A stretch of DNA of 39,624 nt, taken from positions 1 through 39,624 of IMG/VR virus record IMGVR_UViG_3300005264_000074; one strand, 5' to 3'. Each line of letters starts with the position of its first letter. Position 1 is the stretch's first letter. Origin of the DNA: a virus. Below the pieces are notes generated by a model. It saw only the letters and a list, made by a program, of their open reading frames with translations. It did no database searches and was not told the origin of the DNA. This document shows, in pieces, positions 8,147 to 36,253 of this stretch. Position numbers and translations under genes: made by a program.

Positions 8147-8169
8147 ATTATAACATTATTAATATTAAA
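8147..8169 (-). promoter_or_regulatory. Promoter for the capsid operon (TTTAAT-N11-TATAAT)
   Basis: On the minus strand TTTAAT (8164-8169) is followed by an 11-nt spacer ending in TGT and then TATAAT (8147-8152), an extended -10 element. It lies in the 70-nt gap between TerL and the scaffold gene and points at the scaffold. Same architecture and spacing as seven other sites in the window. Confidence 0.75.
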
Positions 8170-8175
8170 CTAATA

Positions 8176-9861
8176 TTAAATATCATAACATTTAGACATA
8201 AGTTTTATTGAAGTCCTAGGTTTAAATTCTCTTACATATATATTAGTTATAGGGCTAAATTTTAAACCCATAGCCATGTATCTAAGCATATCTGCTGGAT
8301 GAGAATGCTCATCATGTACTGGAGCATCTAAATATACATCATATTTACTATCATATTTCTTACGGTAATTCTGAATACAATCTATAATAATTTCACAGTC
8401 TTCGTCTATTTCTAATGTTTTAAGGAACTGTCTAGTTACTTCTATACCCTCCTGTATTCTATGTTTACTAACTAGTATGGGATTAAACCCCATTTCTTGC
8501 ATAGCAGTCCACCTTGTTTTTCCAGCTATTAGTTCGGTGACTTTAATATCATGTGGTACATAAGTATTACCATGAACCCAGCCAAACTTCGCAGATAGTG
8601 CTAAGAAGATATCTCTATAGTGCTCTAAACCATAACCATTATTAGCATATTCTCCTATAATTCTAACTTTACCATTCGGGTGTATCTGAAAGAAGCCTAT
8701 TGAGAATGTATCATTAACACCTAAGTCGAAACTAGAGTGTACTTTAAGGTTACTATCATAACTATTTTTTATTATCTTAAGCTTTTTAAATTCATGCTCA
8801 TAATATGTACCTTCTATACTCTGCTCAAATGCCTCTTTAGCTGTTGTAGGATACTCTTGCTGCATATCGGTACCAAGCTCTTCTTTTTTACTTGCATACC
8901 ACCATTTCTGAGTATCGGCCAGCTCAATATTTAACTCTTCTTCTAGCTTCTTGAAATAGCTATTTAGTTCTGTACTTATCTCTACTTCATGGTCTATATT
9001 ACAATCTAAGTCTTCTAACCAACTAAGGAATATTGGCTGGAAGTCAAATGGTCCCAAAGCTTTCCCTCTATTAACTAGTGACTCTGCTTTAGTCCACATC
9101 TCGTAAAAGAGTCCAGATTTACCTTCAGCCGTCGACTCTATAGTTATCTTATTATCCTTACCTACAGCCTGAAACGCTCCCGTTTTAAGTTCTTTCGCTT
9201 TCTCTGGGAACTTCTTAGCTATTTTACCAAGCTCAGATACATGAAGCCCTTGGAGAGTATCTCCACGGAAGTTACCTATTTTAAGTATCGAGCCGTTCGA
9301 GAATGTCATACCTTTCTGATTATTACTAACCAGCTCTAGTCCTAAGAGTTGTTTAATATCTGGGTCAAGTTCCTCCCACATCAAGAGTGCTCTTTTAGCT
9401 AATTTATCAGCTTCATCTTGCCCATAACTTTGTATCCCTGCTTGATACCCAGAATTAAATAGGCAGGCATCTAAATAATAAGCTAAGTATAGTGTAGATA
9501 TACCTTGCTGTCTAGACTTGAGAATAATCTTCTTACTGTGTCTAAATGACTTAATAACTTTCGTCTGTGCAGAGTTGAGGTGTAGTATCTGCTTCTTAGC
9601 ATTTTTATCTCTAATAGTATAGAGATTATTAAGTCTCCAGAACTTACTCGATAGTTTAGTATCTATAAATTCCTGCTGTTCAGGAGTTAAGCTAAGTTCT
9701 CTATTTTTGTAGTCTTCTGTTAGTTTTTTCCTAGCCTTTAGCTCTTTTCGAGTTTCTTGGGGAGTTTCTATAAAATCCTCATCACTAAGAGAAGCTCTAG
9801 TATAACCAGATAATATAACCGAAGCTAGACCAGATAACTCTATGTTTTCCTTAGCAATCAT
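8176..9861 (-). CDS. terL: Terminase large subunit
   Basis: A 561-residue DNA-packaging motor. The ATPase has an atypical Walker A (KSRQQGIST, about 115-123) in the usual phage-terminase form, and a Walker B region GLHVSELGKI (about 205-214) ending in an acidic pair position, then TIESTAEGKSGLF as coupling motif C. The nuclease domain shows SSFDLGVNDTFSIGFFQ (first acidic residue, about 376), PHDIKVTE and a final DEHSHPADMLRYMAMGLKF. It cuts concatemers and pumps DNA through the portal. ATG 9859-9861 overlaps the end of the small subunit by 11 nt. Unusually, the portal gene is not downstream but some 16 kb away on the circular map. Confidence 0.9.
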   Translation of the reverse strand: MIAKENIELSGLASVILSGYTRASLSDEDFIETPQETRKELKARKKLTEDYKNRELSLTPEQQEFIDTKLSSKFWRLNNLYTIRDKNAKKQILHLNSAQTKVIKSFRHSKKIILKSRQQGISTLYLAYYLDACLFNSGYQAGIQSYGQDEADKLAKRALLMWEELDPDIKQLLGLELVSNNQKGMTFSNGSILKIGNFRGDTLQGLHVSELGKIAKKFPEKAKELKTGAFQAVGKDNKITIESTAEGKSGLFYEMWTKAESLVNRGKALGPFDFQPIFLSWLEDLDCNIDHEVEISTELNSYFKKLEEELNIELADTQKWWYASKKEELGTDMQQEYPTTAKEAFEQSIEGTYYEHEFKKLKIIKNSYDSNLKVHSSFDLGVNDTFSIGFFQIHPNGKVRIIGEYANNGYGLEHYRDIFLALSAKFGWVHGNTYVPHDIKVTELIAGKTRWTAMQEMGFNPILVSKHRIQEGIEVTRQFLKTLEIDEDCEIIIDCIQNYRKKYDSKYDVYLDAPVHDEHSHPADMLRYMAMGLKFSPITNIYVREFKPRTSIKLMSKCYDI

Positions 9862-10297
9862 CTTTAAATTTCTCCGCTAAATTCTGTACAAGTATGTTTA
9901 TCGTAGGTCCTTGGTTCTCTGAGCCTTTATAACTCTTCTCTATTGAGTCAACTATAGCTACCATATCTTTAAACTCTTTAATCTCACAATAATTTATATC
10001 ATCTTCCATAAACTTATTAGCATGAGCTAAGGCCTTTCTCTTAAAGCTGTTTATGCTATCTTGTATATCTATATCTGGAGCTATATCTGGAGCTATATCT
10101 GGAGCTATTATATTTGTAGAGGCAGTACTTGGAACTACTGTTGCTGAAGCTATAGGTTGGTCTTGTTTAGTCCATTTAGTATATCCCTTGAGTTGTTTGG
10201 TTTCTATACTATATTTCTGGCATAGCTCTTCAATTGAGATAGGGGTGCTTTCATATTCTTGTTGATATATTAAGAGTAAGTCGTTTGGTAATTTCAT
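9851..10297 (-). CDS. terS: Terminase small subunit (probable)
   Basis: A 148-residue protein directly upstream of TerL and first in the late arm. The N-terminus (DLLLIYQQEYESTPISIEEL, CQKYSIETKQLKGYTKWTKQ) looks like a helix-turn-helix DNA-recognition domain. A linker follows with tandem APDI repeats (AP DIAPDIAPDID, encoded by 12-nt DNA copies at about 10077-10110), then a helical oligomerisation segment and a C-terminus that would contact TerL. It would recognise the packaging site, possibly the GC-rich island just upstream. Function is inferred from position, size and domain shape. Confidence 0.65.
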   Translation of the reverse strand: MKLPNDLLLIYQQEYESTPISIEELCQKYSIETKQLKGYTKWTKQDQPIASATVVPSTASTNIIAPDIAPDIAPDIDIQDSINSFKRKALAHANKFMEDDINYCEIKEFKDMVAIVDSIEKSYKGSENQGPTINILVQNLAEKFKDDC

Positions 10298-10319
10298 TAA
10301 AGTTCCTTAAATTTTGTTA

Positions 10320-10342
10320 ATTATATCTTATATTAGCTTAAA
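10320..10342 (-). promoter_or_regulatory. Late promoter upstream of TerS
   Basis: Minus-strand TTTAAG (10337-10342), 11-nt spacer ending in GA, then TATAAT (10320-10325), about 22 nt upstream of the TerS start. It differs from the consensus only in the last base of the upstream box and would drive the terminase genes and possibly the whole left arm. Confidence 0.65.
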
Positions 10343-10450
10343 TTTAGTTTAAATTTGAGGATTTGTTAAGAATTGTTTTAGATTTAAGAATTCTGTTATT
10401 CTCTGTAATGGGGTTAAGTTATATAGAATTAAGAATTGCTTTAGATTTCT

Positions 10451-10530
10451 TGGGCCGACATATGATGGTATACTTAGGCCCGGCAGCCCTTGCAGGGGGG
10501 GGGTAGACTACGAACAGAAAATAACGCTAA
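10451..10530. other. GC-rich island with a nine-G tract; candidate packaging site
   Basis: In an AT-rich intergenic region this segment carries GGGCC ... GGCCC inverted arms (about 10452-10481), the near-palindrome CCCTTGCAGGG (about 10487-10497) and nine consecutive G (10495-10503). It lies about 150 nt upstream of TerS, where pac or cos sites are commonly found. The packaging role is inference. Confidence 0.35.
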
Positions 10531-10748
10531 CAATAATCAGTGATAATAAACCGATAATATTTAATTGATTTAAGCTAGATTTAATAGCAATTATGGTATA
10601 GAGAAAGAATTAGCAAATTTGTTATTAATTTAAGCTAGATTTAATATTAATTATAATATTTATATACATTATATATAGATGATAATAAAGTGAGTTAGTA
10701 AATATTAATATAAAAATTTAAAACAGATTTAGCTCTTTTTAATCTAGT

Positions 10749-10771
10749 TTTAATATTTAGTAGTATATAAT
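10749..10771 (+). promoter_or_regulatory. Early promoter 1
   Basis: TTTAAT (10749-10754), 11-nt spacer ending in GTA, TATAAT (10766-10771). It points rightward at the first early gene and lies 84 nt upstream of a second promoter of the same type. Confidence 0.65.
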
Positions 10772-10832
10772 TTAAGTATCAAAAGAGAGTAAGTAAAATT
10801 TAATTAAAATATTCTTTTTGATTTAATTTTTA

Positions 10833-10855
10833 TTTAATAGTTCTTTTGTTATAAT
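10833..10855 (+). promoter_or_regulatory. Early promoter 2
   Basis: TTTAAT (10833-10838), 11-nt spacer ending in TTTTGT, TATAAT (10850-10855), an extended -10. About 50 nt around this site closely resemble the promoter at 15330-15352, including a T-rich upstream stretch, so the two probably share origin and regulation. Confidence 0.75.
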
Positions 10856-10983
10856 TATATACAGCAAAAGAGAGAAGCTAGAAGATAAAGTAATTAAGAC
10901 TATAAATTTATTAGAGTTATAAGTATATCTAATTATAGCTTGTATAAGTCTATGACTTAAATTAAAAACAACAGGAGTCTATT

Positions 10984-11445
10984 ATGGCTAAGTTAACTAA
11001 AAATCAAGTGTGGGCTAATGTCCAAAATCAAGTAGTTGAACTATTAAAAGGTTCTAAAGTAACTAAAGAATTTCAAGAAGAGCTACTATCTATATTAGAG
11101 ACTAATCTTGCACCTAAGACAGGTGGCTCTACAGCTAATCCACCAAAAGAGATAGACGGCGTTATGAACTATTATTGCCGCTTCCACCAAAGATATGAAC
11201 CTATTGAAAATATGGTTATGTCTAAAGATAAATCTAAAGGCTATTGTAAAGCCTCTATCTCACTTTGGAATAAAACTAATAGTGAGATTAAAAAATTAGA
11301 CTCACAAGCTAGTGCATATTTAACTGATGGTGAGTTTGAGAAAGCTCAAGACTTTGCTAAGCAAGCTAAAGCTCTTAGAGATGATTTCAATAAATCAGAG
11401 TTCTATGACTATGATAGAGATTGGGCAGAGTTTAATAAAGTATAG
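10984..11445 (+). CDS. Early protein with a zinc-finger-like module, paralogue of the 17184 gene
   Basis: First gene of the early arm, with AGGAG 5 nt before the ATG. The 153-residue product has an N-terminal helical module (VTKEFQEELLSILETNLAPK, then TGGSTANPP, about 26-54) and a putative metal-binding or knuckle segment YYCRFHQRYEP ... YCKAS (about 64-92), followed by a charged helical tail. The same order, KFNDELQAILAANLEPKAGG then CSVSGAWLP ... FFYEDKAGKG, occurs in the gene at 17184, so they are paralogues. Their position behind early promoters suggests abundant early products, perhaps DNA-binding or host takeover factors, but I recognise no family. Confidence 0.7.
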   Translation: MAKLTKNQVWANVQNQVVELLKGSKVTKEFQEELLSILETNLAPKTGGSTANPPKEIDGVMNYYCRFHQRYEPIENMVMSKDKSKGYCKASISLWNKTNSEIKKLDSQASAYLTDGEFEKAQDFAKQAKALRDDFNKSEFYDYDRDWAEFNKV

Positions 11446-11519
11446 GTTTATTAGAGCTTACTATTAATATAGTGAGCTCATATAAGTCTATTGGCTTAAA
11501 TTAAATATAAGAGTATACC

Positions 11520-11618
11520 ATAAAGTTAGAAGACTTAAGAGCTAAATATAGACCAACTAATGAAAGGCTTCAAGATATAACAAAAGCAATAAAGCTTTTA
11601 AAAGGTATGTTAAAATGA
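11520..11618 (+). CDS. Possible 32-aa protein without a canonical start codon
   Basis: An open frame (reading KLEDLRAKYRPTNERLQDIT then KAIKLLKGMLK) ends in TGA that overlaps the next ATG as ATGA, the coupling signal seen throughout this genome. No ATG, GTG or TTG is present near its 5' end; the only initiator-like codon is ATA at 11520, behind AAGAG. It may be a gene that lost its start, or a rare ATA start. The helical, charged sequence looks protein-like. Confidence 0.3.
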   Translation: MKLEDLRAKYRPTNERLQDITKAIKLLKGMLK

Positions 11619-11815
11619 CTGTTAAGATAAAGAATACAACTATAACTATAGAAGAGGATTTTATTTATACTAGCAGGTTGTTAAATAATAAGCAATATAA
11701 AATATGCACTAAGCTGGATGGAACTATAAGAGACCTGATAGCTAAGTGTGAGACTATATGTAAATTAAATAATGAGCTATATATAGAGTTAGCTATAATA
11801 CAAGCTAAAAATTAA
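11615..11815 (+). CDS. Small early protein of unknown function (66 aa)
   Basis: The 66-residue product (MTVKIKNTTITIEEDFIYTS start) has an N-terminal beta hairpin and a C-terminal helix (LIAKCETICKLNNELYIELA). No family is recognised. It overlaps the small upstream frame by 4 nt and is the last gene before the repeat-rich candidate origin; its 3' end already contains GAGCTATATA-type sequence akin to the repeats beyond it. Confidence 0.55.
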   Translation: MTVKIKNTTITIEEDFIYTSRLLNNKQYKICTKLDGTIRDLIAKCETICKLNNELYIELAIIQAKN

Positions 11816-11819
11816 TTAT

Positions 11820-12105
11820 ATGTTAGGCTATATAGAGCTAGTTATAACGTGGCTAAGTGTAATGATACATTGAGCTAATTATGGAGCTATATTAGGCTAT
11901 ACTGAGCTAAGTGTAATGCTATACTGAGCTAAGTGTAATGCTATATTAGGCTCTAATTATGGAGCTAATTATGGAGCTATATTAGGCTATACTGAGCTAT
12001 ATTAGGCTATACTGAGCTAAGTGTAATGCTATACTGAGCTAAGTGTAATGCTATATTAGGCTCTAATTATGGAGCTATATTAGGCTATGGAGCTAATTAT
12101 AATTT
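11820..12105 (+). repeat. Interspersed tandem repeats with a GAGCTA core (iteron-like)
   Basis: The stretch is built almost wholly from a few modules: GAGCTAAGTGTAATGCTATA, GAGCTATATTAGGCTATACT and GGAGCTAATTAT. A larger block of these modules near 11909-11990 recurs at about 12013-12092. No reading frame is maintained. Position directly upstream of AT-rich DNA and the primase-helicase gene suggests initiator-binding iterons. Confidence 0.8.
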
Positions 12106-12154
12106 GTTATATTTTATTATTAATCTAATATTAAATTTTTATATTAATTATGTT

Positions 12155-12278
12155 ATAAGTACAATAAGTACAATAAGTACAATAAGTACAATAAGTACAA
12201 TAATATAAAAAAGTCGAAATTTGAAAAAAAATATAAAAGAATTTTTTTCATAGCTTATTGTACTTATTGTACTTATTG
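12155..12278. repeat. 9-nt tandem repeats facing their own inverted copies
   Basis: ACAATAAGT is repeated without gaps about 5.4 times (12155-12203). After an AT-rich stretch, the reverse complement appears at 12254-12278 (CTTATTGTA units), so the two arms can pair over 25 nt around a loop of roughly 50 nt. This is a typical layout for an origin or a plasmid-like replication control site. Confidence 0.8.
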
Positions 12279-12336
12279 CAATACAACTAAATTTTAGGAT
12301 TTTTTTAACAAAAACAGGTCCATAAGACTATCCCAC

Positions 12337-12398
12337 ACGTCCATAAATCAAAATTAGATTTTCAACATATTTTAATTTTGATTTTAAAAAATGGACGT
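12337..12398. repeat. Interrupted inverted repeat upstream of the replication genes
   Basis: ACGTCCAT plus ATCAAAATTA (12337-12344, 12347-12356) pairs with TAATTTTGAT plus ATGGACGT (12373-12382, 12391-12398). All 18 bases of the two blocks are complementary, with small bulges. Part of the candidate origin; could alternatively be an operator. Confidence 0.7.
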
Positions 12399-12505
12399 CC
12401 CACAGGCTCCTATGGCGTACTTGTAGTGCTACTAGTTCAAAAATTTAAGCCTAATTTAAGCATAATTTAATATTAGATTAAGATTTCGTTAATATTTAAT
12501 ACATA

Positions 12506-12528
12506 TTTAATATTAAATAGGATATAAT
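12506..12528 (+). promoter_or_regulatory. Promoter of the primase-helicase operon
   Basis: TTTAAT (12506-12511), 11-nt spacer ending in GGA, TATAAT (12523-12528), followed by repeated TTAAATAA and a GAGGA ribosome site before ATG 12568. Same spacing as the other phage promoters. Confidence 0.7.
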
Positions 12529-12567
12529 AATTAAATAATTAAATAATTAAATAATGAGGATATAAAA

Positions 12568-12933
12568 ATGCACACTTACTTAAGCTATAAGGGCTTACAC
12601 AGCATAATCAAATCCCTAGCCTTTCACCGAAATAAATTAAAATTAAGGTTATACAACACAAACCCACCATTTGCCTCGCAGCAAGCAGTATTAGGCAATA
12701 ATAGCAAGGCCATTAAAGCGATACGAGCACATAACTATCATAATGTCACACCTTTAAGAACAGACTATATAGCCGGCAAAGCAACTCCCAATAATAAAGT
12801 GGAGCTAATAATACACTTAGATGAGGAGCAGTTAACCGATGCTATAGAGATACTAAATATAGCTAGGGACTCACAAATAATAGACTCAAGTAGATATAAT
12901 CAATTAAAAGCTTATATAACAGAGGGCCTATAA
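12568..12933 (+). CDS. Unknown protein upstream of the primase-helicase (121 aa)
   Basis: A basic 121-residue protein (SIIKSLAFHRNKLKLRLYNT early; VELIIHLDEEQLTDAIEILN late). The N-terminal third is rich in Lys/Arg/His and could bind nucleic acid; the C-terminal third is helical. It begins 40 nt after a promoter, at the edge of the candidate origin, and ends one nucleotide before the primase-helicase ATG, so the two are co-translated. It is a candidate origin-binding or loading protein, inferred only from context. Confidence 0.6.
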   Translation: MHTYLSYKGLHSIIKSLAFHRNKLKLRLYNTNPPFASQQAVLGNNSKAIKAIRAHNYHNVTPLRTDYIAGKATPNNKVELIIHLDEEQLTDAIEILNIARDSQIIDSSRYNQLKAYITEGL

Positions 12934-12934
12934 T

Positions 12935-15307
12935 ATGACTATAATACCACTACCTAATAGTATACATAGGAACCTAGAGACTAAAAAGAAATTCTACAAA
13001 ACAATAGCTAGTAATGAGATAGCTAAGAGTGCTGGAATGCCAAGAGGCTGGGAGTCAACTAATAGCTACAGTCAGCTAACATATAAGCAAGTTAATAGCT
13101 ATGCAATAAGATGTGATGATGATTTAGTTGTTATAGATTGTGATGACTTAGAGACTACAGTCCTAATAGATGATGCTCTAGTACCAGGTGAGGACCATAC
13201 AAAAGAGCATTATATAATTATTAGTGATAAGGGAGAGAAGCACTTTTATTTTGCACCCTCCGAATACTACAGAGAGAGTAAGCTATACAAGAAGTCGAGG
13301 GTTGCACTAGGTAAAATAGATGTATTGCATGGTAAGGCCCTAGTATATGCAGCTTGTAAGGGTAATGAAACAAAGAGTGTATTACAAGGCACTAAAAATA
13401 TAGATAGTAAATTAGGTTATGGCTTAACTCCAATACCTAATAATATAGTTGATATGCTAGTGCTTAGACTAAAGACGAAAATATTAGCTAAGGAAGAGGA
13501 TTATAAGCCGGTAGTTAGCTTCTTAGCTCCACTAATAGAGCATTCACTAGCACTATATACTCACCATACTAAGGGTGGTAATTATTTAGATATGCAAGCA
13601 CTAATGGCACTAATAACACCAGCGCAGTATAGAGAGGAGTTGAAACCTGATAATAACCCTGCGAGGTTAGAAGAGGGTAGAATGACATACCTCCATGCAA
13701 TAAGCTTTAAGGTTAGTAATGACCCAAGTATTAGCTTTGAGCTACACCAAGAATTAATAAACACAATATCGAATATGTTACAGAGACCAATGGACCCAGC
13801 AAGGCTAAAGGCAGAGATATTTGACTATGTAAGAAGTGAGGTTAATGGTACTAGATGGCAGTATAATAAAAATGCGACTGGGCAGCCACTAGTATCAATG
13901 AATAGCTCTGAGTATTGCCCAATATATAGAACACTAGAGGATGAATATGTATTATCAAAGCCCTCGGGGGATGTAGTTATATTATCAAGTACCCAGAAGT
14001 TTAAGCAGGCGATAGGTACTAAGAACTTTTCACTGCTAGTTAATGGAGCTAAGGTAAATTTAGAGACCTCAATAGCTATGAAAAAATTGCAGGACTCTAT
14101 GGAGACACTGTCTATAAGAGACCTACCATATAGAAACACAGGTGTATTTATCGAGGATAACTCACTATATTACAATAAACATGTACCTACAAAGTATTTA
14201 GGGATAATTAGAGGTACTTATAAAAGTAACTTAGTTTATCAAGGGCCAGAGTCACACCCACTAATAACTAGAATAATTAAGAATGTAATGTGTGATAACC
14301 TAGAAATAGCTGCAAATGATGGCGAGTTAACTATGTACGATAAGTTTATAGAGTTTCTTAGTTTCAAGCTTAAAAAACTAGAGTATTCACCACTAGTATT
14401 TCAGCTTATGGGTAATCGTGGTACTGGTAAGTCGCTGCTCATGCAGATATTTAATGACCTTACTGGGTTATTTATGCCAGTGAGCTTTAGTAAAAAGACC
14501 GAGTTTAATGGTGATATGGCAGGGCAGATATTCTTGAATGAAGATGAAGGATTAGTTACTCAACAGTTAGTTAATACAGCTAAGACGCTATCTGGCTCTA
14601 AAATTATATCAATTCGTAGGTTGTATGCTGAGGCTGAGAAGCAAAGAAATATAGCTACCTATATATTTACTACAAATAAAACTACACCTATGGCAGAGAC
14701 TATAAACGATAGGAGATTTGTTACCTTTAGTAGTTTTAAAGCACCTAAGCTATTTGAGAAAGACATGGAGCTTAGTATAGCCTTAGAATTGGAAGCCTTT
14801 TCACTATGCTTAAGGGACACTAAAATAACTAACCCGAAATTATACTTAGATGCTAATGAGTGGCATGATGCTATACACTATGATAATTTTGAGGAGAAGC
14901 AGCAAGTAACCGAACACATTCCTAGCAGAATAGCTAATTTACTTTATATATTAAATAGCTTATCTGGTGCTGAAATACACAAGCAATTAGAAATGTGCTT
15001 TGGTACTGATTATCACTATATAACAACTAAAAGGTCGCCTACAGTTATCAATATACCTTTAGCTAAGTATCCTCAGTTAGTTAGAAAGTCTGATGGTCGA
15101 GTGTTAACACATGAAATTACTAGGGATATGCTTAAAGCTGTAGAATTAGATAGCTATATAAAGATGGATAGGAATGGTAAGAAGACCGTGTATGGTGAGA
15201 ACTTTTATAGCTTAAGACTTAACTTATCCCACAACCAATTAAGTGAGTGGGAGACAAGCAAAAATGGTATCGAACCTATAGCAGGGGACGATATAGAAAT
15301 TGATTAA
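12935..15307 (+). CDS. Primase-helicase: N-terminal PrimPol (AEP) domain with SF3 helicase
   Basis: A 790-residue replication initiator. The N-terminal primase-polymerase domain shows the three archaeo-eukaryotic primase motifs: acidic VVIDCDD (66-71), SDKGEKHFYF (97-106) and KIDVLHGKALVYAA (127-140). A linker domain follows. The C-terminal superfamily 3 helicase has Walker A LMGNRGTGKS (491-500), Walker B-like IFLNEDEG (532-539), sensor YIFTTNKTTPM (576-586) and arginine motif NDRRFVTF (591-598). Such D5/PrimPol-SF3 proteins unwind at a specific origin and prime synthesis, so the adjoining repeat region is the probable target. Together with the polymerase and ssDNA-binding protein they make a self-contained replisome. 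Confidence 0.9.
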   Translation: MTIIPLPNSIHRNLETKKKFYKTIASNEIAKSAGMPRGWESTNSYSQLTYKQVNSYAIRCDDDLVVIDCDDLETTVLIDDALVPGEDHTKEHYIIISDKGEKHFYFAPSEYYRESKLYKKSRVALGKIDVLHGKALVYAACKGNETKSVLQGTKNIDSKLGYGLTPIPNNIVDMLVLRLKTKILAKEEDYKPVVSFLAPLIEHSLALYTHHTKGGNYLDMQALMALITPAQYREELKPDNNPARLEEGRMTYLHAISFKVSNDPSISFELHQELINTISNMLQRPMDPARLKAEIFDYVRSEVNGTRWQYNKNATGQPLVSMNSSEYCPIYRTLEDEYVLSKPSGDVVILSSTQKFKQAIGTKNFSLLVNGAKVNLETSIAMKKLQDSMETLSIRDLPYRNTGVFIEDNSLYYNKHVPTKYLGIIRGTYKSNLVYQGPESHPLITRIIKNVMCDNLEIAANDGELTMYDKFIEFLSFKLKKLEYSPLVFQLMGNRGTGKSLLMQIFNDLTGLFMPVSFSKKTEFNGDMAGQIFLNEDEGLVTQQLVNTAKTLSGSKIISIRRLYAEAEKQRNIATYIFTTNKTTPMAETINDRRFVTFSSFKAPKLFEKDMELSIALELEAFSLCLRDTKITNPKLYLDANEWHDAIHYDNFEEKQQVTEHIPSRIANLLYILNSLSGAEIHKQLEMCFGTDYHYITTKRSPTVINIPLAKYPQLVRKSDGRVLTHEITRDMLKAVELDSYIKMDRNGKKTVYGENFYSLRLNLSHNQLSEWETSKNGIEPIAGDDIEID

Positions 15308-15329
15308 ATTCTTTTTATTTTAATTTCTA

Positions 15330-15352
15330 TTTAATAATTATTTGGATATACT
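15330..15352 (+). promoter_or_regulatory. Promoter for the small-gene/Dda operon
   Basis: TTTAAT (15330-15335), 11-nt spacer ending in TTTGGA, TATACT (15347-15352). About 50 nt match the early promoter at 10833-10855. It lies 25 nt upstream of the 41-codon gene at 15378. Confidence 0.7.
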
Positions 15353-15377
15353 TATATACATATAATAGGAGATAATA

Positions 15378-15503
15378 ATGGTAATAACTAATATAAAGAC
15401 AGGCTTAAAGAAATATATTAACCGTTGGCTTTACTCACCTCATGAGCTAAATAAAATATTTGAGTTTTATACTCAGCTTAAAATTTATGAGGTTAAGGAT
15501 TAG
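15378..15503 (+). CDS. Small unknown protein (41 aa)
   Basis: ATG with an AGGAGA site 8 nt upstream, directly after a promoter, opens a 41-residue frame with a basic, aromatic sequence (GLKKYINRWLYSPHELNKIF). No family is recognised. The ribosome site, promoter and tight spacing to the next genes support it being real. Confidence 0.55.
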   Translation: MVITNIKTGLKKYINRWLYSPHELNKIFEFYTQLKIYEVKD

Positions 15504-15506
15504 GTT

Positions 15507-15623
15507 ATGGAAGAGTTTGAGATACACAAGAAATTAAGAAGAGAATTTGATAAGCTGTACAGCTTATATTTACAACTTAGAGTTAAAGAAATTGAATCTA
15601 AATTCAAATCAATAGGAAAGTAA
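15507..15623 (+). CDS. Small charged helical protein (38 aa)
   Basis: A 38-residue frame starting 3 nt after the preceding stop and ending 1 nt before the next start. The sequence is a single amphipathic, Lys/Glu-rich helix (HKKLRREFDKLYSLYLQLRV). No family is recognised; the evidence is its packing within the operon. Confidence 0.5.
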   Translation: MEEFEIHKKLRREFDKLYSLYLQLRVKEIESKFKSIGK

Positions 15624-15624
15624 A

Positions 15625-15816
15625 GTGCTAATATTTTACTCAAGTAAAAGTGAGTTTATAGAGCAAGCTAAATACCTACAGAGTAAATTAATTATAATAG
15701 CTTTACTCTTTGGGTTAGCTTTAGGTGTTCTAATTGGATTATCACTACATGAATATAAACAGCTAGAATTAAATAGACAGCAGATAATTAAAATAAGGAA
15801 AAGCCATGGCAATTAA
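15625..15816 (+). CDS. Small inner-membrane protein (63 aa)
   Basis: A GTG start one base after the preceding stop opens a 63-residue protein with one clear membrane helix (LIIIALLFGLALGVLIGLSL, about 22-41) flanked by a charged N-terminus and a basic C-terminal tail (LNRQQIIKIRKSHGN). It overlaps the helicase gene by 11 nt. It may be a host-takeover or membrane-anchoring early protein; no family recognised. Confidence 0.6.
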   Translation: MLIFYSSKSEFIEQAKYLQSKLIIIALLFGLALGVLIGLSLHEYKQLELNRQQIIKIRKSHGN

Positions 15817-17008
15817 ATTTAACTATACTACTGGTTATGCTGGTACTGGTAAAAGTACCGAGCTAATTAAAAGAGTTAACTCTCTACCATTGTCTAGCGC
15901 TATAGTTATTGCCCCTACTCATAAAGCTTTGTATAGACTTAAGGGACATTTACCTCAGAGTTTAGAGGTTAAAACTATACATGCTTTATTAGGTTGGATA
16001 CCTACTATAAATGAAAAAGCTAAAAGAATTGAGCATATAGATAGCACTCACAAATTAGATAAAGGTCTTGAAGAGTATGAGCATATAGTTATAGATGAAG
16101 CAGGTATGATGAGTGAGGAAATGCTTTTCGATATAGTGAGTAAGCTAGAGGAGCAATTAGATTATGATAACACAGAGGATAGCAAGACAATAACTATCCA
16201 TTGTTTCTTAGACCCTTACCAGTTAAAGCCAGTTAAAGGTATTCAGATACAAACTGACCCAGAATATACAACAAAGCTAACTACACAATACCGCTCTGAG
16301 AGTCTTGATATAATTGCCTTATATACTAAGTTTGTTCATTACTTAGAGGGGTTAAATACTAAGGATTTAACTATAGAATACTCTGAAAATGTTAAACCTT
16401 TAGATATAAAGCAATTCAAGAAAGATGATAGGTTACTAGCTTATACAAATAAAGCTGTAGGTAACTGGAATAAAATAATAGCTAAACATTTAGGTATTAC
16501 TTCATATATAAGCCAAGAAGTACAACTAGGTAATAGATTGGACTTAGTTAAGGTTAAGGACTTTATTAAACCTTCACTTGAGGATTTAGTAATGTGGTTT
16601 GAGTCTGGTAAATTAGTATTGCAGAATAATCAGATATCTAAGAGGTTTTTAGAGTCTAATCTACAAGCACTTATAAGTAATGGAAATATAGAGTTTATTG
16701 AAAGTGATGATAGGTTAGTCTACTGTGTTATTGTTGGTATTGATAAAGCTAATATAGCTATAAATAAAGCTAAAGAGAAAGCTATAGAAAATAGGAGAGC
16801 TTTTAAAGATGTTTATGCTTTAGGTAGAGCTTTTATTATGGACTATAATTTTGCTACTACTGTACATAAGAGTCAAGGCTCAGAATTTAATAATATTTTT
16901 ATTGATAAATTAGATATCCAAAAATCAATTAAAAATAATTATTATGATTTATATGCGAGACTACTTTATGTGGCTCTATCGCGAGCTAAACAGTCTATAT
17001 GGATATAA
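15806..17008 (+). CDS. SF1 DNA helicase, Dda/RecD-like
   Basis: A 400-residue superfamily 1B helicase. Motifs in order: Walker A GYAGTGKST (10-18), Ia IVIAPTHKA (about 33-41), Walker B VIDEAGMM (95-102), motif III FLDPYQLKPVKG (about 134-145), motif IV TTQYRS (about 159-164), then a C-terminal half with TTVHKSQGSEF (motif V, about 353) and LYVALSRAKQSIWI (motif VI, at the very end). Size and motif set match the phage T4 Dda helicase, a 5'-3' enzyme that helps start replication and removes bound proteins. It follows the small membrane protein in one operon. Confidence 0.85.
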   Translation: MAIKFNYTTGYAGTGKSTELIKRVNSLPLSSAIVIAPTHKALYRLKGHLPQSLEVKTIHALLGWIPTINEKAKRIEHIDSTHKLDKGLEEYEHIVIDEAGMMSEEMLFDIVSKLEEQLDYDNTEDSKTITIHCFLDPYQLKPVKGIQIQTDPEYTTKLTTQYRSESLDIIALYTKFVHYLEGLNTKDLTIEYSENVKPLDIKQFKKDDRLLAYTNKAVGNWNKIIAKHLGITSYISQEVQLGNRLDLVKVKDFIKPSLEDLVMWFESGKLVLQNNQISKRFLESNLQALISNGNIEFIESDDRLVYCVIVGIDKANIAINKAKEKAIENRRAFKDVYALGRAFIMDYNFATTVHKSQGSEFNNIFIDKLDIQKSIKNNYYDLYARLLYVALSRAKQSIWI

Positions 17009-17063
17009 TTATATTAAATATTAAGTGAGAATTTTAATAATATTTGATTTCATTTGATCTATA

Positions 17064-17086
17064 TTTAATATTTGTTTTGATATAAT
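17064..17086 (+). promoter_or_regulatory. Promoter upstream of the 17184 gene
   Basis: TTTAAT (17064-17069), 11-nt spacer ending in TTTTGA, TATAAT (17081-17086), an extended -10. The roughly 95-nt leader that follows includes complementary AGGCCTT-type sequence, so an RNA structure is possible. Confidence 0.75.
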
Positions 17087-17183
17087 ATTATTACAAATAA
17101 AGAATAAGAGATTATTCTTTGGCTTGAGAAGGTCATAAAACTATCTAATAAATTCGCCTAGTCAAGGCCTTAAAGGATATAAT

Positions 17184-17676
17184 ATGGCAACTAAGAAAGA
17201 AATTTTTACAATGGTAACAACAGCGGTGGCAGCTTTATGCACAACTCATAAAACTCCAACTAAATTTAATGATGAGTTACAAGCTATTTTAGCTGCAAAC
17301 CTAGAGCCAAAAGCTGGTGGTGCAACTGTTAACCTTGATGAAGTTACAAGAAAAGATAAAGACGGTAACATTGTTGAAATTCAATGTTCTGTTTCTGGTG
17401 CTTGGCTACCTGCTACAAAAGAGTTCTTCTATGAAGATAAAGCTGGTAAAGGTATTAATGGTCTTAAGAGACTATCTCGTCAAGCAGAAAGTATCCGTAA
17501 GCATTTCATCAAAGTTCAAAGTTCAAAGTGCTTCTGAGAAAGCTATTGTGGTTGATGTACTTAGTAAAACTATCACTCCTGAAGTTGGTGCAGCTAAAAT
17601 TAAAAAGCTTGAAACTGCAAAACCTGACTTTACAGCAGTAACTGCTAAAGTAGCTGAAAATAAAGAGTCTAACTAA
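17184..17676 (+). pseudogene. Zinc-finger-like early protein (paralogue of 10984), frameshifted by a 7-nt duplication
   Basis: The gene starts at ATG 17184 behind an AAGGATAT site and reads MATKKEIFTMV ... KHFIKVQSS before stopping at 17537. The unit AAAGTTC is present twice in a row (17511-17517, 17518-17524). Removing one copy continues the frame as KVQSASEKAIVVDVLSKTIT and on to TAA 17674-17676, for 161 residues. The N-terminus (KFNDELQAILAANLEPKAGG) and the knuckle-like CSVSGAWLP ... FYEDKAGKG match the gene at 10984. It has its own strong promoter and a terminator, so it is an independent unit. As sequenced the protein is cut to 117 residues, leaving the shared module intact and losing the C-terminal helix. 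Confidence 0.7.
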
Positions 17677-17680
17677 TCTT

Positions 17681-17698
17681 AAGCCTTCGGGCTTTTGA
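17681..17698 (+). terminator. Rho-independent terminator after the 17184 unit
   Basis: AAGCC-TTCG-GGCTT stem-loop (17681-17694) with a stable tetraloop, followed by TTTG, 4 nt after the restored stop codon. Short but well placed. Confidence 0.7.
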
Positions 17699-17702
17699 TT
17701 AC

Positions 17703-17762
17703 AATAAGCTTATAACTGGTATACATTTACTCCTATTGGTGTATATTAGTTATAAGCTTATT
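17703..17762. repeat. Perfect 15-bp inverted repeat
   Basis: AATAAGCTTATAACT (17703-17717) pairs with AGTTATAAGCTTATT (17748-17762); inner bases GGTATACA/TGTATATT extend it imperfectly. It lies between a terminator and the ssDNA-binding protein gene. It could be an operator, a leader structure or a second terminator. Two and a half 10-nt ACAGACTAAA repeats follow at 17798-17823. Confidence 0.75.
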
Positions 17763-17837
17763 TAAGCTGACACAGCCTCGGTGTGCAGAGGTATATAACA
17801 GACTAAAACAGACTAAAACAGACATAAAAGGATTAAC

Positions 17838-18482
17838 ATGTCAAGCAGAATTAAAACAAAAGTATGTAATTTAAAGTACATTTTCATTACAGGTGCCGGT
17901 AGAAACCAAGCTATGCCAGGTGAAGAGCCTCGTATGCAATTTGTTGCAAGTGCTATTATGCCTAAAGATGGTGAGGCTCATAAATACTTATTATCTCAAA
18001 TAGATACTGAGTGGCAAGAATATAAAGAGCAATTTGGTGTAAAAGGTTTACCTAAAACTAATGGTATTAAAGATGAGATGCAAAGAGACCCTAAGGGTGA
18101 AATCGACCCTGCTACTGAAGAAATAAGAAAAGTGCCTACTGGTAATGTAATAGCTACATTCAAAACTAATACAACATGGCCAGATGGTAATGCACAAGTA
18201 GTTAAAGTTAAAGACCGTAAAGGTAAAGATATCACTGAAGCTATAGCTAATGCAGAATGGTCTATTGGTGAAGGTTCTCAAGGTATTATACATGGTATGG
18301 CATCTGCAAATAATATTGGTGGTACACATAAAGTAACACTATATTTATCTGCAATTCAATTAGCTAAATTAGTTAAGTATGAAGGTAATGATGTTCAATG
18401 TGATGAGATTGAGGGTGATGATATTGATTTAGGTGAAGATGTAGCTGCAATTGATAGCTCAGATAATTCTCCAGATATTTAA
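17838..18482 (+). CDS. Single-stranded DNA-binding protein, DUF2815 type
   Basis: A 214-residue protein with the features of phage DUF2815/T7 gp2.5-like ssDNA-binding proteins. The N-terminal beta barrel contains PRMQFVASAIMPKDGEAHKY (about 32-51), a middle loop, and the segment NAEWSIGEGSQGIIHG (about 139-154). The C-terminus is a strongly acidic tail (CDEIEGDDIDLGEDVAAIDS), the usual contact for polymerase and helicase. It would coat single strands during replication and recombination. It is bounded by hairpins and a terminator, consistent with independent strong expression, and lies just upstream of the polymerase. Confidence 0.75.
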   Translation: MSSRIKTKVCNLKYIFITGAGRNQAMPGEEPRMQFVASAIMPKDGEAHKYLLSQIDTEWQEYKEQFGVKGLPKTNGIKDEMQRDPKGEIDPATEEIRKVPTGNVIATFKTNTTWPDGNAQVVKVKDRKGKDITEAIANAEWSIGEGSQGIIHGMASANNIGGTHKVTLYLSAIQLAKLVKYEGNDVQCDEIEGDDIDLGEDVAAIDSSDNSPDI

Positions 18483-23011: not shown

Positions 23012-23034
23012 TATGAAATTAATTGCGATATAAT
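23012..23034 (+). promoter_or_regulatory. Promoter of the HTH/MazG/RNR operon (weaker match)
   Basis: TATAAT (23029-23034) preceded by GCGA gives the G-N extended -10. At the standard 11-nt spacing the upstream box is TATGAA (23012-23017), a poor match to TTTAAT. It lies 21 nt before an AGAGGAGG ribosome site. Confidence 0.55.
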
Positions 23035-23055
23035 TACATTACAGAGGAGGTAATA

Positions 23056-23849: not shown

Positions 23850-24415
23850 TGAAAACTTTATATATAGATGTTGAGACAACGGGGCTTATTAAATATACTC
23901 ATGGTATTATAGAACTAGCTTATATTATAGAAGATGCTGAAGGCAATGAACTAACAAGAGGTGAACTTAAAATGAACCCTCTTACTTATAGTAAGCAAGT
24001 ATCTGATAAAGCTTTAGAAGTAAATGGCTATACAATAGAACAACTTAAAAAGCTACCTGATGCTAAAGAAGCTTGTTTAAAGTTTATATCAATTCTAAAT
24101 AAATATATAAATGATGAGGATAAATATAAACTAGTTGCCTATAATGCAGACTTTGATACGGGGTTCATTCAAACTTGGATGGATAAGCTAGTTCCTTCTA
24201 CTTACTGGAAACTAATCGACTATAAACACTTAGACCCTTTTGCTTTAGTTAAGTATCTACAGTTCTTTGGCAAGATTAATGTAGGTAAATCTCTAAGTTT
24301 AAGAGCTGTTGCTGAATATTATGGTATTGATTTAATACCTCACAAAGCTTCTAGTGATATAAATGCTACAAGAGAAATACATAAAATTTTAAGTAAGGTT
24401 TTAAAAGATGTTTAA
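23849..24415 (+). CDS. DnaQ-like DEDDh 3'-5' exonuclease
   Basis: A 188-residue RNase T/DnaQ superfamily exonuclease. Exo I is LYIDVETTGL (D7, E9), Exo II is VAYNADFDTGF (about 96-106, D101), and Exo III is PHKASSDINATREI (about 164-177), with the histidine of the DEDDh subtype and its aspartate. As the polymerase already has a proofreading domain, this enzyme probably acts in repair, recombination or host-DNA/RNA degradation. It overlaps the ligase gene by 8 nt. Confidence 0.85.
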   Translation: MKTLYIDVETTGLIKYTHGIIELAYIIEDAEGNELTRGELKMNPLTYSKQVSDKALEVNGYTIEQLKKLPDAKEACLKFISILNKYINDEDKYKLVAYNADFDTGFIQTWMDKLVPSTYWKLIDYKHLDPFALVKYLQFFGKINVGKSLSLRAVAEYYGIDLIPHKASSDINATREIHKILSKVLKDV

Positions 24416-24926
24416 TTTTATACCTCAATATAAAGGTAAAGACCTTAACGATGTAGTTACTAAGGCTAAAAAAGATAAATACTTTTCTGGTATTAAGTAT
24501 GATGGGAATTATGTGCAAATACATAAAGTTGGCAGTGAAGTTATGCTCTTTACTTCTGGTGGCAAGCCATTTAAGTTACTAGATATAGAGGCTGATTTGG
24601 TAAGACTAAACCCTAATGTAGATTTTATTCTTGAAGCTGAATATATAGGTCTTACAGACGGAAAGTTAGGTAGTAGAGGTAAATGTACTACTACAACTTG
24701 GAGGACTAACTATGCTAAAGGTTTATTAGGTAATGCTGGTAAAACACATTTTAAAGTATTTGATATTTTAATACCTTCTATGTCTTTTAGTCAAAGGTTA
24801 GAACAGATAGAAAATATAAAACTAGGTAATAATCTATCTTTAGTACAATTTGATGAAATGCCTTTAAAAGAAGCTATTAATTTTTCAAGCCATTTATGTG
24901 AGCAAGGTTGGGAAGGCAACTTTTAA
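24408..24926 (+). CDS. ATP-dependent DNA ligase, N-terminal part (truncated)
   Basis: The nucleotidyltransferase half of a small phage ligase. Motif I is KYDG (K30 would carry AMP), motif III FILEAEYIG (73-81), motif IIIa HFKVFDIL (114-121) and motif IV begins at GWEG (about 167-170). Then the frame stops after two more residues. Motif V, which should follow with an essential lysine, is absent, as is the join to the OB-fold domain found in another frame just downstream. At 172 residues it is well short of a whole ligase (about 250-350), so it is probably inactive in nick sealing, although self-adenylation could survive. Confidence 0.75.
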   Translation: MFNFIPQYKGKDLNDVVTKAKKDKYFSGIKYDGNYVQIHKVGSEVMLFTSGGKPFKLLDIEADLVRLNPNVDFILEAEYIGLTDGKLGSRGKCTTTTWRTNYAKGLLGNAGKTHFKVFDILIPSMSFSQRLEQIENIKLGNNLSLVQFDEMPLKEAINFSSHLCEQGWEGNF

Positions 24927-25152
24927 ATATAGTGATATTAACCCTAGTGATATAGGTAGTTTACTTTGTGTTAATAGCACTGGTATTGAGGTAGCGGTAG
25001 GTGGTTTAACACATAATCTAAAAAGTAAACCACCTAGCTATTTTATAGATAGAGTTATAGAAATGGCTTATGAGTCTATTGGTATTAATACATACTTACA
25101 GCCGAGATTTAAAAGGTTTAGAGATGATAAAACTAAAGAGGAAATTAATTAA
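24898..25152 (+). pseudogene. DNA ligase C-terminal (OB-fold) remnant, out of frame
   Basis: From GTG 24898, overlapping the truncated ligase in another frame, 84 codons read as the end of a ligase OB domain: DIGSLLCVNSTGIEVAVGGL (about 17-36), PPSYFIDRVIEMAYESIG (about 45-62) and TYLQPRFKRFRDDK (about 65-78). About 50-60 residues including motif V seem to be missing between the two parts, with a frame change at TTGGGAAGGC. It may be translated by coupling, but a split ligase lacking motif V would not be expected to work. Confidence 0.65.
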
Positions 25153-27332
25153 TGTTAAGAAATACACAGAAACTAATGTCGGATGCGAAATTTTATGAGT
25201 CCTATAGCAGACACACAGGAGATAGCTATGAGACTTGGACTCAATCAGTAAATAGAGTAAAAGCTATGCATAATATTAAATATGCTTCAGTAATGTCCCC
25301 ACAACTAGCTGAGCTAATTGATTATGCTATAAGTTATTATGATAATAAAGATATCTTAGGAGCTCAAAGAGCTTTACAGTTTGGAGGTGAACAACTACTT
25401 AATAAAAATGCTAAGATGTATAACTGTACCGCTTCTTATTGTAATAGGAGCGATTTCTTTAGTTCAGCTTTTTGGCTTATGTTATGTGGTTGTGGAGTTG
25501 GTTTTAGTGTTCAGAAACATCATATAGCTAAACTGCCTAATATATCAAAAAGAAAAGGACACGCTAAACCTTTTATAGTTAAGGACTCTATTGAGGGTTG
25601 GGCAGACTCAGTTAAAGTATTATTAGCTAGCTTCTTTGATGAAGATACTGAGTACAGAGGTAGAAAAATCTATTTTGATTTAACTAACATTAGACCTAAA
25701 GGTTCTGAAATATCTGGAGGTTTCAAAGCACCCGGTTCTGAGCCTTTAAGATTAGCCTTAGATAAAATAGAAAAACTACTTAAAGATGAATTAAATAAGG
25801 GAGCAACTAAACTTAGAACCATAGTAGCTTATGATATTATGATGTTTATAGCTGATGCAGTTATTGCTGGTGGTGTCCGCAGAGCTGCAACTATATGCTT
25901 ATTTTCTCATGATGATGAAGATATGATTAAAGCTAAAACTGGTGATTGGTTTGTTACTAACCCTCAAAGAGGTAGGAGTAATAACTCTGCAGTACTACTT
26001 AGAGACTCTACTAATTTTAGTGAGTTCGAAAGTATTATGAAATCAGTACAACACTTTGGAGAGCCAGGATTTGTTTGGGCAGATGACTTAGATATATTAT
26101 TTAACCCTTGTGTTGAGGTAGGTATGTATGGATATACTGAGGACGGTCGTAGTGGCTTCCAAATGTGTAATCTTACAGAAATTAATGGGGCTAAAGCTAC
26201 TACTAAAGAACATTTCTTTAATCAGTGTAAAGCTGCAGCTATATTAGGTACACTACAAGCTGGTTACACTGACTTTGGCTATCTTACAGATGCTACTGAA
26301 GAAATAGTTAATAGAGAAGCACTTATTGGGGTAGGTATTACTGGCTGGATGAATAATCCTGATATACTATTTAATAAGAGTATCCAGCAAAACGGGGCTA
26401 AGATAGTTAAATATTGGAATAAAGTTACTGCCGATTTAATTGGTATTAATCCAGCAGCAAGAACTACAGTAGTTAAACCATCTGGTAATACTTCAGTATT
26501 ATTAGGTACTGCTAGTGGTATTCACGGAGAACACTCACCAAGGTATATTCGCCATGTACAAATGAATAAAGAAGCAGAGGTAGCTAAATTAATAGCTAAA
26601 ACTAATCCAGAAATGGTTGAAACATCTGTATGGTCAGAATTAGATTATTCTATAGGTTTTCCTATTCAGCCTAAAGAAGGCTCCACCTATAAGAAAGACT
26701 TATTAGGGGTAAAACAATTAGAGTATGTAAAACTAGCTCAAGATAACTGGATTGAATATGGAACTAATAAAGAATTGTGTATCAAGCCATTCCTTAAGCA
26801 TAATGTATCTAATACTATTACAGTAGATGATTGGGAGAGTGTAACTAATTATATATATAAGAATAGATATTCTTTATGTGGAGTATCTTTACTATCTGCT
26901 GCTGGAGATAAAGCTTATCCACAAGCACCTTTCACTGAAGTATTAACCATGGAAGAGATTACAGCTAAGTATGGTGAAGTATCACTATTCACCTCAGCTC
27001 TAATTAGTTCAGGACTTTTAGCTTTTAATAACAACTTATGGACAGCTATAGATACTTGTTTAGGTTTTGGTGAGACACTAACTGAGGGTTCTACTACTTT
27101 ATTAAAGAGAGATTTTGTTAGAAGATTTAATAAGTTTTCTAGACATTTTAGCTCTAAAGAAGAGTGTGGAAACTGCTTAAAAGATGTGCATAATTTACAT
27201 AAGTGGTGGAGAATAACTAATAATGCCCAAGAGATTAATTGGTCGCAAGATCTAAGTAAGAAAGAGTTTGTAGAAGTTGGTACATTAACAGCTTCTGGGT
27301 GCTCTGGTGGTGCTTGTGAGCTGGAGTTTTAG
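25152..27332 (+). CDS. nrdJ: Adenosylcobalamin-dependent (class II) ribonucleotide reductase, monomeric RTPR type
   Basis: Reduces ribonucleotides to deoxyribonucleotides using a B12-generated thiyl radical. At 726 residues it matches the single-chain Lactobacillus-type enzyme. Active-site residues: C92 in MYNCTASYC (first redox Cys), C339 and E343 in QMCNLTEIN (radical Cys and catalytic Glu), C358 (second redox Cys), and a C-terminal shuttle pair CSGGAC six residues apart near the end. VVKPSGNTSVLLGTASGIHG (about 473-492) is the conserved substrate-binding loop. It needs cobalamin from the host or medium but no oxygen, so it works aerobically and anaerobically. It follows the ligase remnant with TAATG overlap. 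Confidence 0.92.
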   Translation: MLRNTQKLMSDAKFYESYSRHTGDSYETWTQSVNRVKAMHNIKYASVMSPQLAELIDYAISYYDNKDILGAQRALQFGGEQLLNKNAKMYNCTASYCNRSDFFSSAFWLMLCGCGVGFSVQKHHIAKLPNISKRKGHAKPFIVKDSIEGWADSVKVLLASFFDEDTEYRGRKIYFDLTNIRPKGSEISGGFKAPGSEPLRLALDKIEKLLKDELNKGATKLRTIVAYDIMMFIADAVIAGGVRRAATICLFSHDDEDMIKAKTGDWFVTNPQRGRSNNSAVLLRDSTNFSEFESIMKSVQHFGEPGFVWADDLDILFNPCVEVGMYGYTEDGRSGFQMCNLTEINGAKATTKEHFFNQCKAAAILGTLQAGYTDFGYLTDATEEIVNREALIGVGITGWMNNPDILFNKSIQQNGAKIVKYWNKVTADLIGINPAARTTVVKPSGNTSVLLGTASGIHGEHSPRYIRHVQMNKEAEVAKLIAKTNPEMVETSVWSELDYSIGFPIQPKEGSTYKKDLLGVKQLEYVKLAQDNWIEYGTNKELCIKPFLKHNVSNTITVDDWESVTNYIYKNRYSLCGVSLLSAAGDKAYPQAPFTEVLTMEEITAKYGEVSLFTSALISSGLLAFNNNLWTAIDTCLGFGETLTEGSTTLLKRDFVRRFNKFSRHFSSKEECGNCLKDVHNLHKWWRITNNAQEINWSQDLSKKEFVEVGTLTASGCSGGACELEF

Positions 27333-27333
27333 T

Positions 27334-34396: not shown

Positions 34397-36201
34397 AATA
34401 AACCTCCATAAGTATCAGCACTAAATAAATCAACATCCTCTAAAGCTGGCACAGTAGCTTTAGCAATCTCGCCTATCAATTCATTTTTTTGTTTATCTTT
34501 ATTAATTTTCAATTCTGTATCTATTTTAGCAGCCTCTAAATTTCTAGTTGCCTCAGCATTATAAGCAGCTGCAGTAGTATTTTGTAAACTATTTTTTTGT
34601 CCTAAACCTAAACTTAAGAATGATTGTTGTTCATTAGCTACTTGACTAGGAGCTAATCTTCTAGCCTCGGAAGAATCTTTAGCTGTAGCTGTTTGAATAT
34701 CAACTATAGATTGAGCTTGAGCTCCACTATCACTTAATCCTCTTTGAGCTAACTGTCTGTCTATTTCAGCTTGAGTATCTTGGTAGTATTTATGTATGTT
34801 ACTTATATTGTTAGCAGCATAACTATCTGGTTCTAAACCTTCATAATAATCAGCTAATGCTTTTTGTGTAGGCCCATAAATATTTTCCCAATCTTCTAAT
34901 TGTTTTTGCATAAATTCTATACCATCACTGCCCCCTAAAGAAGTTCCACTAGGTTGACCATTGTAAATACTAGGTGCTTCACCAGTTATTGCGTCACCTA
35001 TTAAAGAAGAAGCTCCGCTAATTATCACTTTTTTACCTAAAGTCTTAGCAGCATCAGTTAGTGGGCTAGTGGTGGCAGCAGCTCCACCAAATAAATCACT
35101 AGCTAATGAGCCACTAGCTGCAGCTTCTACAGTAGGACCTAATGCACCACCAGCAAGACCTGCCCCAGCACCTCCAGTTAGTCCTGTCATTGAACCACTA
35201 GCTATAGCAGCTTCTGTAGCGCCAATAGCTTCTGCAGTGGTAGCTCCGGTATATAATCCAGTCATTGAACCACTAGCTATGGCTGCTTCTGTTGCAGCGA
35301 TACCTTCTGCTGCTGTGGTAGGTCCTAACGCTGCAGCAGTTGCACCACCAGCAGCTAATCCACTAGCAGCTGCTCCACCTCCTAAGACAGACCCAGCACC
35401 TGCAAAAGCTCCGGGAGTAGCAGCAGCTATTTCTGCAGCAGTTAATCCGCCAGCGGCTGCAGCAGTTAATCCGCCAGCGGCTGCTGCACTTCCCCCTGCT
35501 GCACTTCCAGCTCCCCCTGCTGCAGCTGCTCCGCCACCTGCTGCACTTCCAGCTCCAGCTAATGCTGCTCCACCTACCACTGCTGCCGCTGCTGCAGTTA
35601 CATAAGGAATGGCATCAGTTGCAATTTTGGTTATGTTTCTCATAATTCTATTGAAAGTAGATTGATGACCCGGTAGTCTAAACCCAAAAGATTGTACTAT
35701 ACCAGTATAAAGTTTTGCTTCTTCTTCAGCCTTCCTTCCTGCTTCTGAGTGCTCTCTAGTTATTAAGTCATCTTGCCACTGTGCAAAATCTGCTGTCATA
35801 TTGGAACTTCCGGTAGACTCCATATATTCTACAGCTAAGGGGTTTTTCTCTAGTTCAAGTCGAGCATTTTTACTGTCTATCCATATATATTCTCCAGACT
35901 CACCATCAATAGACCCATAACGATTTAGTATCCTTTGTAGGTCTTTTTCCTCTTCATTCAAAGCTATACCTAAGTCATTTTTTATTCGTATATCATCAAA
36001 AGCATTAATATACTTAGGTAATCCTCGTTCCTCTCTTACTTGTACTAAATAGTTATATAAATTCTGTATCTGAGTAGTAGAGGTATTATATCTCTGTAAA
36101 GACTCTTTATATTCTGCACTTTCAGGGTTATTGCCTGCTTTTTGCATATCATGCCAAGCATCTTTCTGTAAAGATTTTAAATCTGGTAGCTCTTCAGCCA
36201 T
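34393..36201 (-). CDS. Gly/Ala-rich DNA-ejection protein
   Basis: A 602-residue virion protein. Residues 1-190 are charged helices. Residues about 195-385 consist almost wholly of Ala, Gly, Ser and Thr (AAAAAVVGGAALAGAGSAAG and similar), with glycine-zipper-like spacing and internal DNA repeats, e.g. duplicated segments around 35430-35490 and 35177-35300. The remaining 215 residues are helical (EIDRQLAQRGLSDSGAQAQS). P22 gp16/gp20-like and other podovirus ejection proteins use such Gly/Ala-rich stretches to insert into the envelope and form a DNA channel. First gene behind the promoter at 36231-36253. Confidence 0.65.
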   Translation of the reverse strand: MAEELPDLKSLQKDAWHDMQKAGNNPESAEYKESLQRYNTSTTQIQNLYNYLVQVREERGLPKYINAFDDIRIKNDLGIALNEEEKDLQRILNRYGSIDGESGEYIWIDSKNARLELEKNPLAVEYMESTGSSNMTADFAQWQDDLITREHSEAGRKAEEEAKLYTGIVQSFGFRLPGHQSTFNRIMRNITKIATDAIPYVTAAAAAVVGGAALAGAGSAAGGGAAAAGGAGSAAGGSAAAAGGLTAAAAGGLTAAEIAAATPGAFAGAGSVLGGGAAASGLAAGGATAAALGPTTAAEGIAATEAAIASGSMTGLYTGATTAEAIGATEAAIASGSMTGLTGGAGAGLAGGALGPTVEAAASGSLASDLFGGAAATTSPLTDAAKTLGKKVIISGASSLIGDAITGEAPSIYNGQPSGTSLGGSDGIEFMQKQLEDWENIYGPTQKALADYYEGLEPDSYAANNISNIHKYYQDTQAEIDRQLAQRGLSDSGAQAQSIVDIQTATAKDSSEARRLAPSQVANEQQSFLSLGLGQKNSLQNTTAAAYNAEATRNLEAAKIDTELKINKDKQKNELIGEIAKATVPALEDVDLFSADTYGGLL

Positions 36202-36230
36202 TACTAATCCTTATTTAATTATTATAGTCT

Positions 36231-36253
36231 ATTATATCACATTTAATATTAAA
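36231..36253 (-). promoter_or_regulatory. Promoter of the ejection-protein/portal operon
   Basis: Minus-strand TTTAAT (36248-36253), 11-nt spacer ending in GTGA, TATAAT (36231-36236), about 30 nt before the 36201 start. It lies in the only sizeable gap of the right late arm and would boost the ejection proteins and portal. Confidence 0.75.

Follow-up and report, generated by a model that had tools for sequence, protein, structure and literature searches.

Extended -10 promoters with paired TTTAAT boxes in an uncultivated phage clade, probably a Campylobacterota promoter style

Promoter sites of the window and the genes they precede

The window, that is the whole stretch of 39,624 nt analysed here (positions 1 to 39,624 of IMG/VR record IMGVR_UViG_3300005264_000074), belongs to an uncultivated phage, has an AT content of 67% and, with genes taken as simple longest-ORF calls, is only 9.6% intergenic. 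A sequence-only reading had pointed out eight intergenic sites in which TTTAAT, an 11-nt spacer and TATAAT follow each other; we recovered all of them, with the same positions and strands, and each lies entirely (100%) in intergenic DNA. The sites are listed below together with one weaker site. Scores come from a 40-position weight matrix built on 41 distinct sites from related viral contigs, with the window left out of training (consensus aaaATTTAATnnAAnTTTAATataaanTAtGaTATAAT). Promoter positions are numbered by placing the -10 box at -12 to -7.

8147..8169, minus strand: predicted promoter (-29 to -7), second box TTTAAT; matrix score 31.5
10320..10342, minus strand: predicted promoter, first box TTTAAG, second box TTTAAA; matrix score 29.2
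10749..10771, plus strand: predicted promoter without the G at -14, first of a tandem pair; matrix score 27.0
10833..10855, plus strand: predicted promoter, second of the tandem pair; matrix score 22.1
12506..12528, plus strand: predicted promoter, counterpart in relative G006; matrix score 30.8
15330..15352, plus strand: predicted promoter, -10 box TATACT; matrix score 17.2
17064..17086, plus strand: predicted promoter, second box TTTGAT, counterparts in relatives G003, G004 and G006; matrix score 27.3
36231..36253, minus strand: predicted promoter; matrix score 31.5
23012..23034, plus strand: probable weaker promoter, absent from the earlier list; matrix score 15.7

On the minus strand, the site at 8147 precedes a gene in the scaffold position (7476-8105) and the major head protein operon, with counterparts at the matching gene position in G003, G004, G005 and G006; the site at 10320, with counterparts in the same four relatives, precedes the gene in the small terminase position (9851-10297), the immediate upstream neighbour of the large terminase gene, and the site at 36231 precedes the DNA-ejection/internal virion operon (36201-29056). 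On the plus strand, the tandem sites at 10749 and 10833 precede gene 10984-11445, the site at 12506 precedes gene 12568 and a primase/helicase-like gene (12935-15307), downstream of the site at 15330 come a small ORF at 15378, equipped with a GGAG ribosome site, and the helicase gene (15806-17008), and the site at 17064 precedes gene 17184, after which come the genes for an SSB-like protein (17838) and the DNA polymerase (18687). The weaker site lies at the start of a small HTH-like gene (23023-23277), whose homologs in G002, G003, G005 and G006 are preceded by sites of the same type. The distance to the start codon is 23-42 nt for the sites at 8147, 10320, 12506 and 36231, and the leaders are longer at 10749, 10833 and 17064. 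The earlier proposal that early and late modules have one promoter type in common is borne out by the presence of sites before both sets of operons and, given this sharing, it is fair to infer that temporal control comes from elsewhere.

Spacing of the boxes and the second upstream box

The exact motif TTTAAT-N11-TATAAT occurs six times in the window, compared with a mean of 0.12 and a maximum of 2 in 300 dinucleotide shuffles of it. When the spacer between TTTAAT and TATAAT was scanned from 0 to 39 nt, N11 gave six pairs and N22 five; all other lengths gave 0-2 each. The held-out matrix led to the same sites: its top eight matches in the window are exactly the eight intergenic sites, with scores of 17.2-31.5, and the eight matches scoring at least 17 compare with an average of 0.05 in Markov shuffles. 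An alignment on the best TATAAT matches of the window alone (13 sites) showed no clear 11-nt periodicity, probably because weak or false -10 boxes were mixed in.

The -10 box is TATAAT in seven of the eight sites and TATACT in the remaining one. The G two bases before it, which the sequence-only reading had ascribed to all of them, is present in seven as an extended -10 feature at -14 and is replaced by T at 10749. The first upstream box occupies -29 to -24 in all eight, and exactly 11 nt farther upstream, at -40 to -35, every site carries a second TTTAAT-like box (TTTAAT in six, TTTGAT and TTTAAA in one each). The motif as originally described is thus present but incomplete, since this second box had been overlooked, and the full unit is TTTAAT-N5-TTTAAT-N11-TATAAT. 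By the positions of its parts, this unit combines an extended -10 element with a direct repeat of two boxes set one helical turn apart. The upstream box had been remarked to be too close for a -35; with the second box one turn farther upstream, the arrangement becomes the known 10-11 nt periodic signal. In a scan of positions 8000-18000, sites of the TTGACA/TATAAT type numbered 38, below the shuffle mean of 48.9, and none of the matches listed had a canonical TTGACA -35 sharing the -10 of a reported site. Between the divergent arms (10560-10980), TTTAAG/TTTAAT pairs 11 nt apart also occur at 10580 and 10640, where the -10 boxes are poor.

Conservation in related contigs and occurrence in Campylobacter phages

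A terminase alignment yielded 80 viral loci, from which we defined a near set of 36 loci at 50% terminase identity or more (474 kb, the contig L028 of a metagenome-assembled genome, MAG, among them) and a distant set of 45 loci (538 kb). The spacer scan gave 101 pairs at N11 and 85 at N22 in the near set, over a background of about 8, and 8 and 11, respectively, in the distant set, over a background of about 5. The promoter layout is common to the 36 related contigs and hardly occurs in the next clade. On the terminase tree, site presence required 9 changes compared with 28 for shuffled labels, a strong clustering, and rows with sites made up 35 of 37 in the half containing the window and 7 of 47 in the other. 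Matches in the relatives lie mostly 20-40 nt ahead of start codons, at matching gene positions. Five near-complete relatives have sites ahead of the same genes, although not every site is present in every relative. These genes are the two that flank the large terminase gene (the one after it being in the scaffold position), genes 10984 and 17184, the HTH-like gene and those of the ejection protein operon. Across 200 sites of the clade, T frequency forms waves at -29 to -27 and -40 to -38.

The same matrix was applied to other phages. In the Campylobacter phages CP220 and NCTC12673, which are T4-like, unrelated to the clade of the window and have a proven Campylobacter host, 12 sites were found in 50 kb of the former, where 1.5 were expected, and 23 sites in 100 kb of the latter, where 4.0 were expected; three of the NCTC12673 sites fall at depositor-annotated promoters, of which the scanned stretch holds eight. 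Both phages share with the window the paired boxes 11 nt apart and the N11 spacer to TATAAT, but their hexamer is mostly TTTAAG. RNA-Seq of NCTC12673 reportedly assigned most transcription to A/T-rich promoter motifs (PMC6024767). By protein, the nearest annotated relatives of the window are Pseudoalteromonas phage PH1 and Edwardsiella phage KF-1, with terminases 38-40% and DNA polymerases about 30% identical to those of the window, but by the matrix they have no sites of its promoter type; T4, Pelagibacter phage HTVC010P, PH1 and KF-1 gave 0-1 matches. The tail-assembly-like protein encoded at 1172-1570 is the only one of the window that matched the searched parts of the Campylobacter phages and a C. 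jejuni plasmid. The promoter DNA of the window, searched as such in phages, gave no match.

Comparison with Campylobacterota promoters, recognition and host

As published for C. jejuni, sigma-70 promoters combine a periodic A/T pattern in place of the -35 with TGxTATAAT in some 89% of promoter regions (PMC3656092); sigma-70 promoter waves have been published at -7, -17, -27 and -38 (PMC3847290). The box centres of the phage, at -26.5 and -37.5, agree with the T-rich waves at about -27 and -38. The comparison with host promoters that the sequence-only reading had suggested came out in favour of a match: as in the RpoD promoters of C. jejuni and Epsilonproteobacteria (Petersen 2003; PMC3656092; PMC3847290), an extended -10 is combined with T-rich waves every 10-11 nt and no TTGACA. 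The difference is that the phage waves are near-fixed TTTAAT hexamers, whereas the published genome-wide ones are diffuse. An older C. jejuni consensus (Wosten), given in PMC3824568 as TTTAAGTnTT / TTTTTTTG / TATAAT and cited for Sulfurospirillum too in PMC7755780, shares the TTTAA core of the hexamer, the TATAAT and the extended -10 G; its sixth hexamer base is G, whereas in the phage it is mostly T (G in one site), and the accessible text of the two sources has one box, called -35, with no exact repeat described.

Campylobacterota test DNA for the matrix consisted of plasmids and phages, the C. jejuni plasmid pVir not being among the sequences analysed. One gene of the C. jejuni plasmid pTet has a strong, high-scoring site. 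No matrix sites were found in 100 kb of Sulfuricurvum plasmid, where T periodicity of 11-12 nt is weak, or in H. pylori phage KHP30; the sharp hexamer is therefore not universal in Campylobacterota.

As had been claimed, no phage sigma factor was detected: Sigma70_r2 and Sigma70_r4 were absent from all six frames of the window, with positive controls. For phage RNA polymerase, PF00940 had no match in the window and gave no positive in the control set either, and none of the proteins compared with PHROGs and Pfam was a single-subunit RNA polymerase. Together with the match to published C. jejuni promoters and the layout in unrelated Campylobacter phages, the lack of a phage sigma factor makes host sigma-70, one of two options left by the sequence-only reading, well supported; there is no need to invoke the other, an unidentified phage factor. 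We consider it highly probable (about 0.9) that these are ordinary host RpoD promoters in a podovirus-like phage of Campylobacterota, with the paired boxes replacing the -35. The main promoters of the phage would be read by host RNA polymerase carrying RpoD, the housekeeping sigma factor; early and late operons would share their architecture, and each of the sites would be in use. TATAAT and the G at -14 would serve sigma region 2 and the extended -10 contact, and the two TTTAAT boxes, on the same helix face and one turn apart, would stand in for the -35 hexamer as a strong version of the AT signal that recurs every 10-11 nt in this phylum, possibly aiding polymerase binding through DNA shape, bending or upstream contacts.

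Going further, the paired TTTAAT boxes could be a distinct sequence-specific element, stricter than the AT waves of the host, on which Campylobacterota phages converged to outcompete host promoters, possibly via direct contacts with sigma or the alpha subunit that are undescribed for the phylum; we regard this as rather unlikely. Quite improbable is a phage-encoded activator or sigma-like protein that binds the paired boxes and recruits host polymerase to the extended -10. In this clade the paired hexamer is indeed more sharply defined than the diffuse waves reported for host genes, and all five near-complete relatives retain the HTH-like gene (23023-23277) as well as genes 10984 and 17184; nevertheless, the TTTAA[G/T] pair also occurs in T4-like Campylobacter phages that share only the 1172-1570 match in the parts searched, a C. 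jejuni plasmid gene likewise has a high-scoring site, neither sigma region 2 nor sigma region 4 was found in the window, and early genes would require the factor before its synthesis. Even less credible are repressor operators that overlap ordinary promoters and serve temporal control rather than polymerase recognition: some boxes are palindromic (TTTAATATTAAA at 12506 and 36231), but the palindrome is missing from the clade consensus, the same boxes stand at early and late promoters, and they coincide with the published sigma-70 waves. A chance product of AT-rich intergenic DNA, conceivable in a window that is 67% AT, is ruled out by the spacing scans (exact spacings of 11 and 22, all others at background), the shuffles and the held-out matrix recovering the same eight sites, and is also contradicted by the AT-rich controls T4 and HTVC010P with 0-1 matches and by the conserved gene positions in relatives.

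The promoter style alone points to a host in Campylobacterota. Prophage or genome contigs gave a single match, a contig in a MAG named Spirochaetia (L028, 1-14202), which is a phage contig of the same clade as the window, with TTTAAG-type sites. We set this link aside: in the rest of the MAG the pattern is only slightly enriched over the reversed control, with no exact match among the places listed, and because of this low enrichment L028 is probably misbinned. Plasmid and phage similarity returned only distant relatives and no Campylobacterota record among the matches listed.

Because the promoter style is known from Campylobacter and its relatives, the feature is largely ordinary, yet usable as a host clue. 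It would extend the periodic promoter style of Campylobacterota to a clade of uncultivated phages, where it takes the shape of an exact double hexamer; as a sequence fingerprint, this could give the host phylum of phage contigs without any other host link, and the eight sites are clean candidate strong promoters for studying how the polymerase of the phylum works without a -35 box.

Among other genes of the window, a ribonucleotide reductase gene (25152-27332; PHROG 367, with a weak match to a B12-dependent insertion domain) and, amid the late genes, a gene for a protein with the antibiotic-biosynthesis-monooxygenase (ABM) fold (38962-39276) had no match in the related contigs examined. An ATP-dependent DNA ligase (24408-25152) is split over two frames and is shorter than those of the relatives (about 280 aa). 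Gene 17184 is likewise broken into two frames (17184-17676), beside a repeated AAAGTTC, and its counterpart in two relatives is a single ORF of 152-165 aa; the break may be a sequencing error or a real frameshift.
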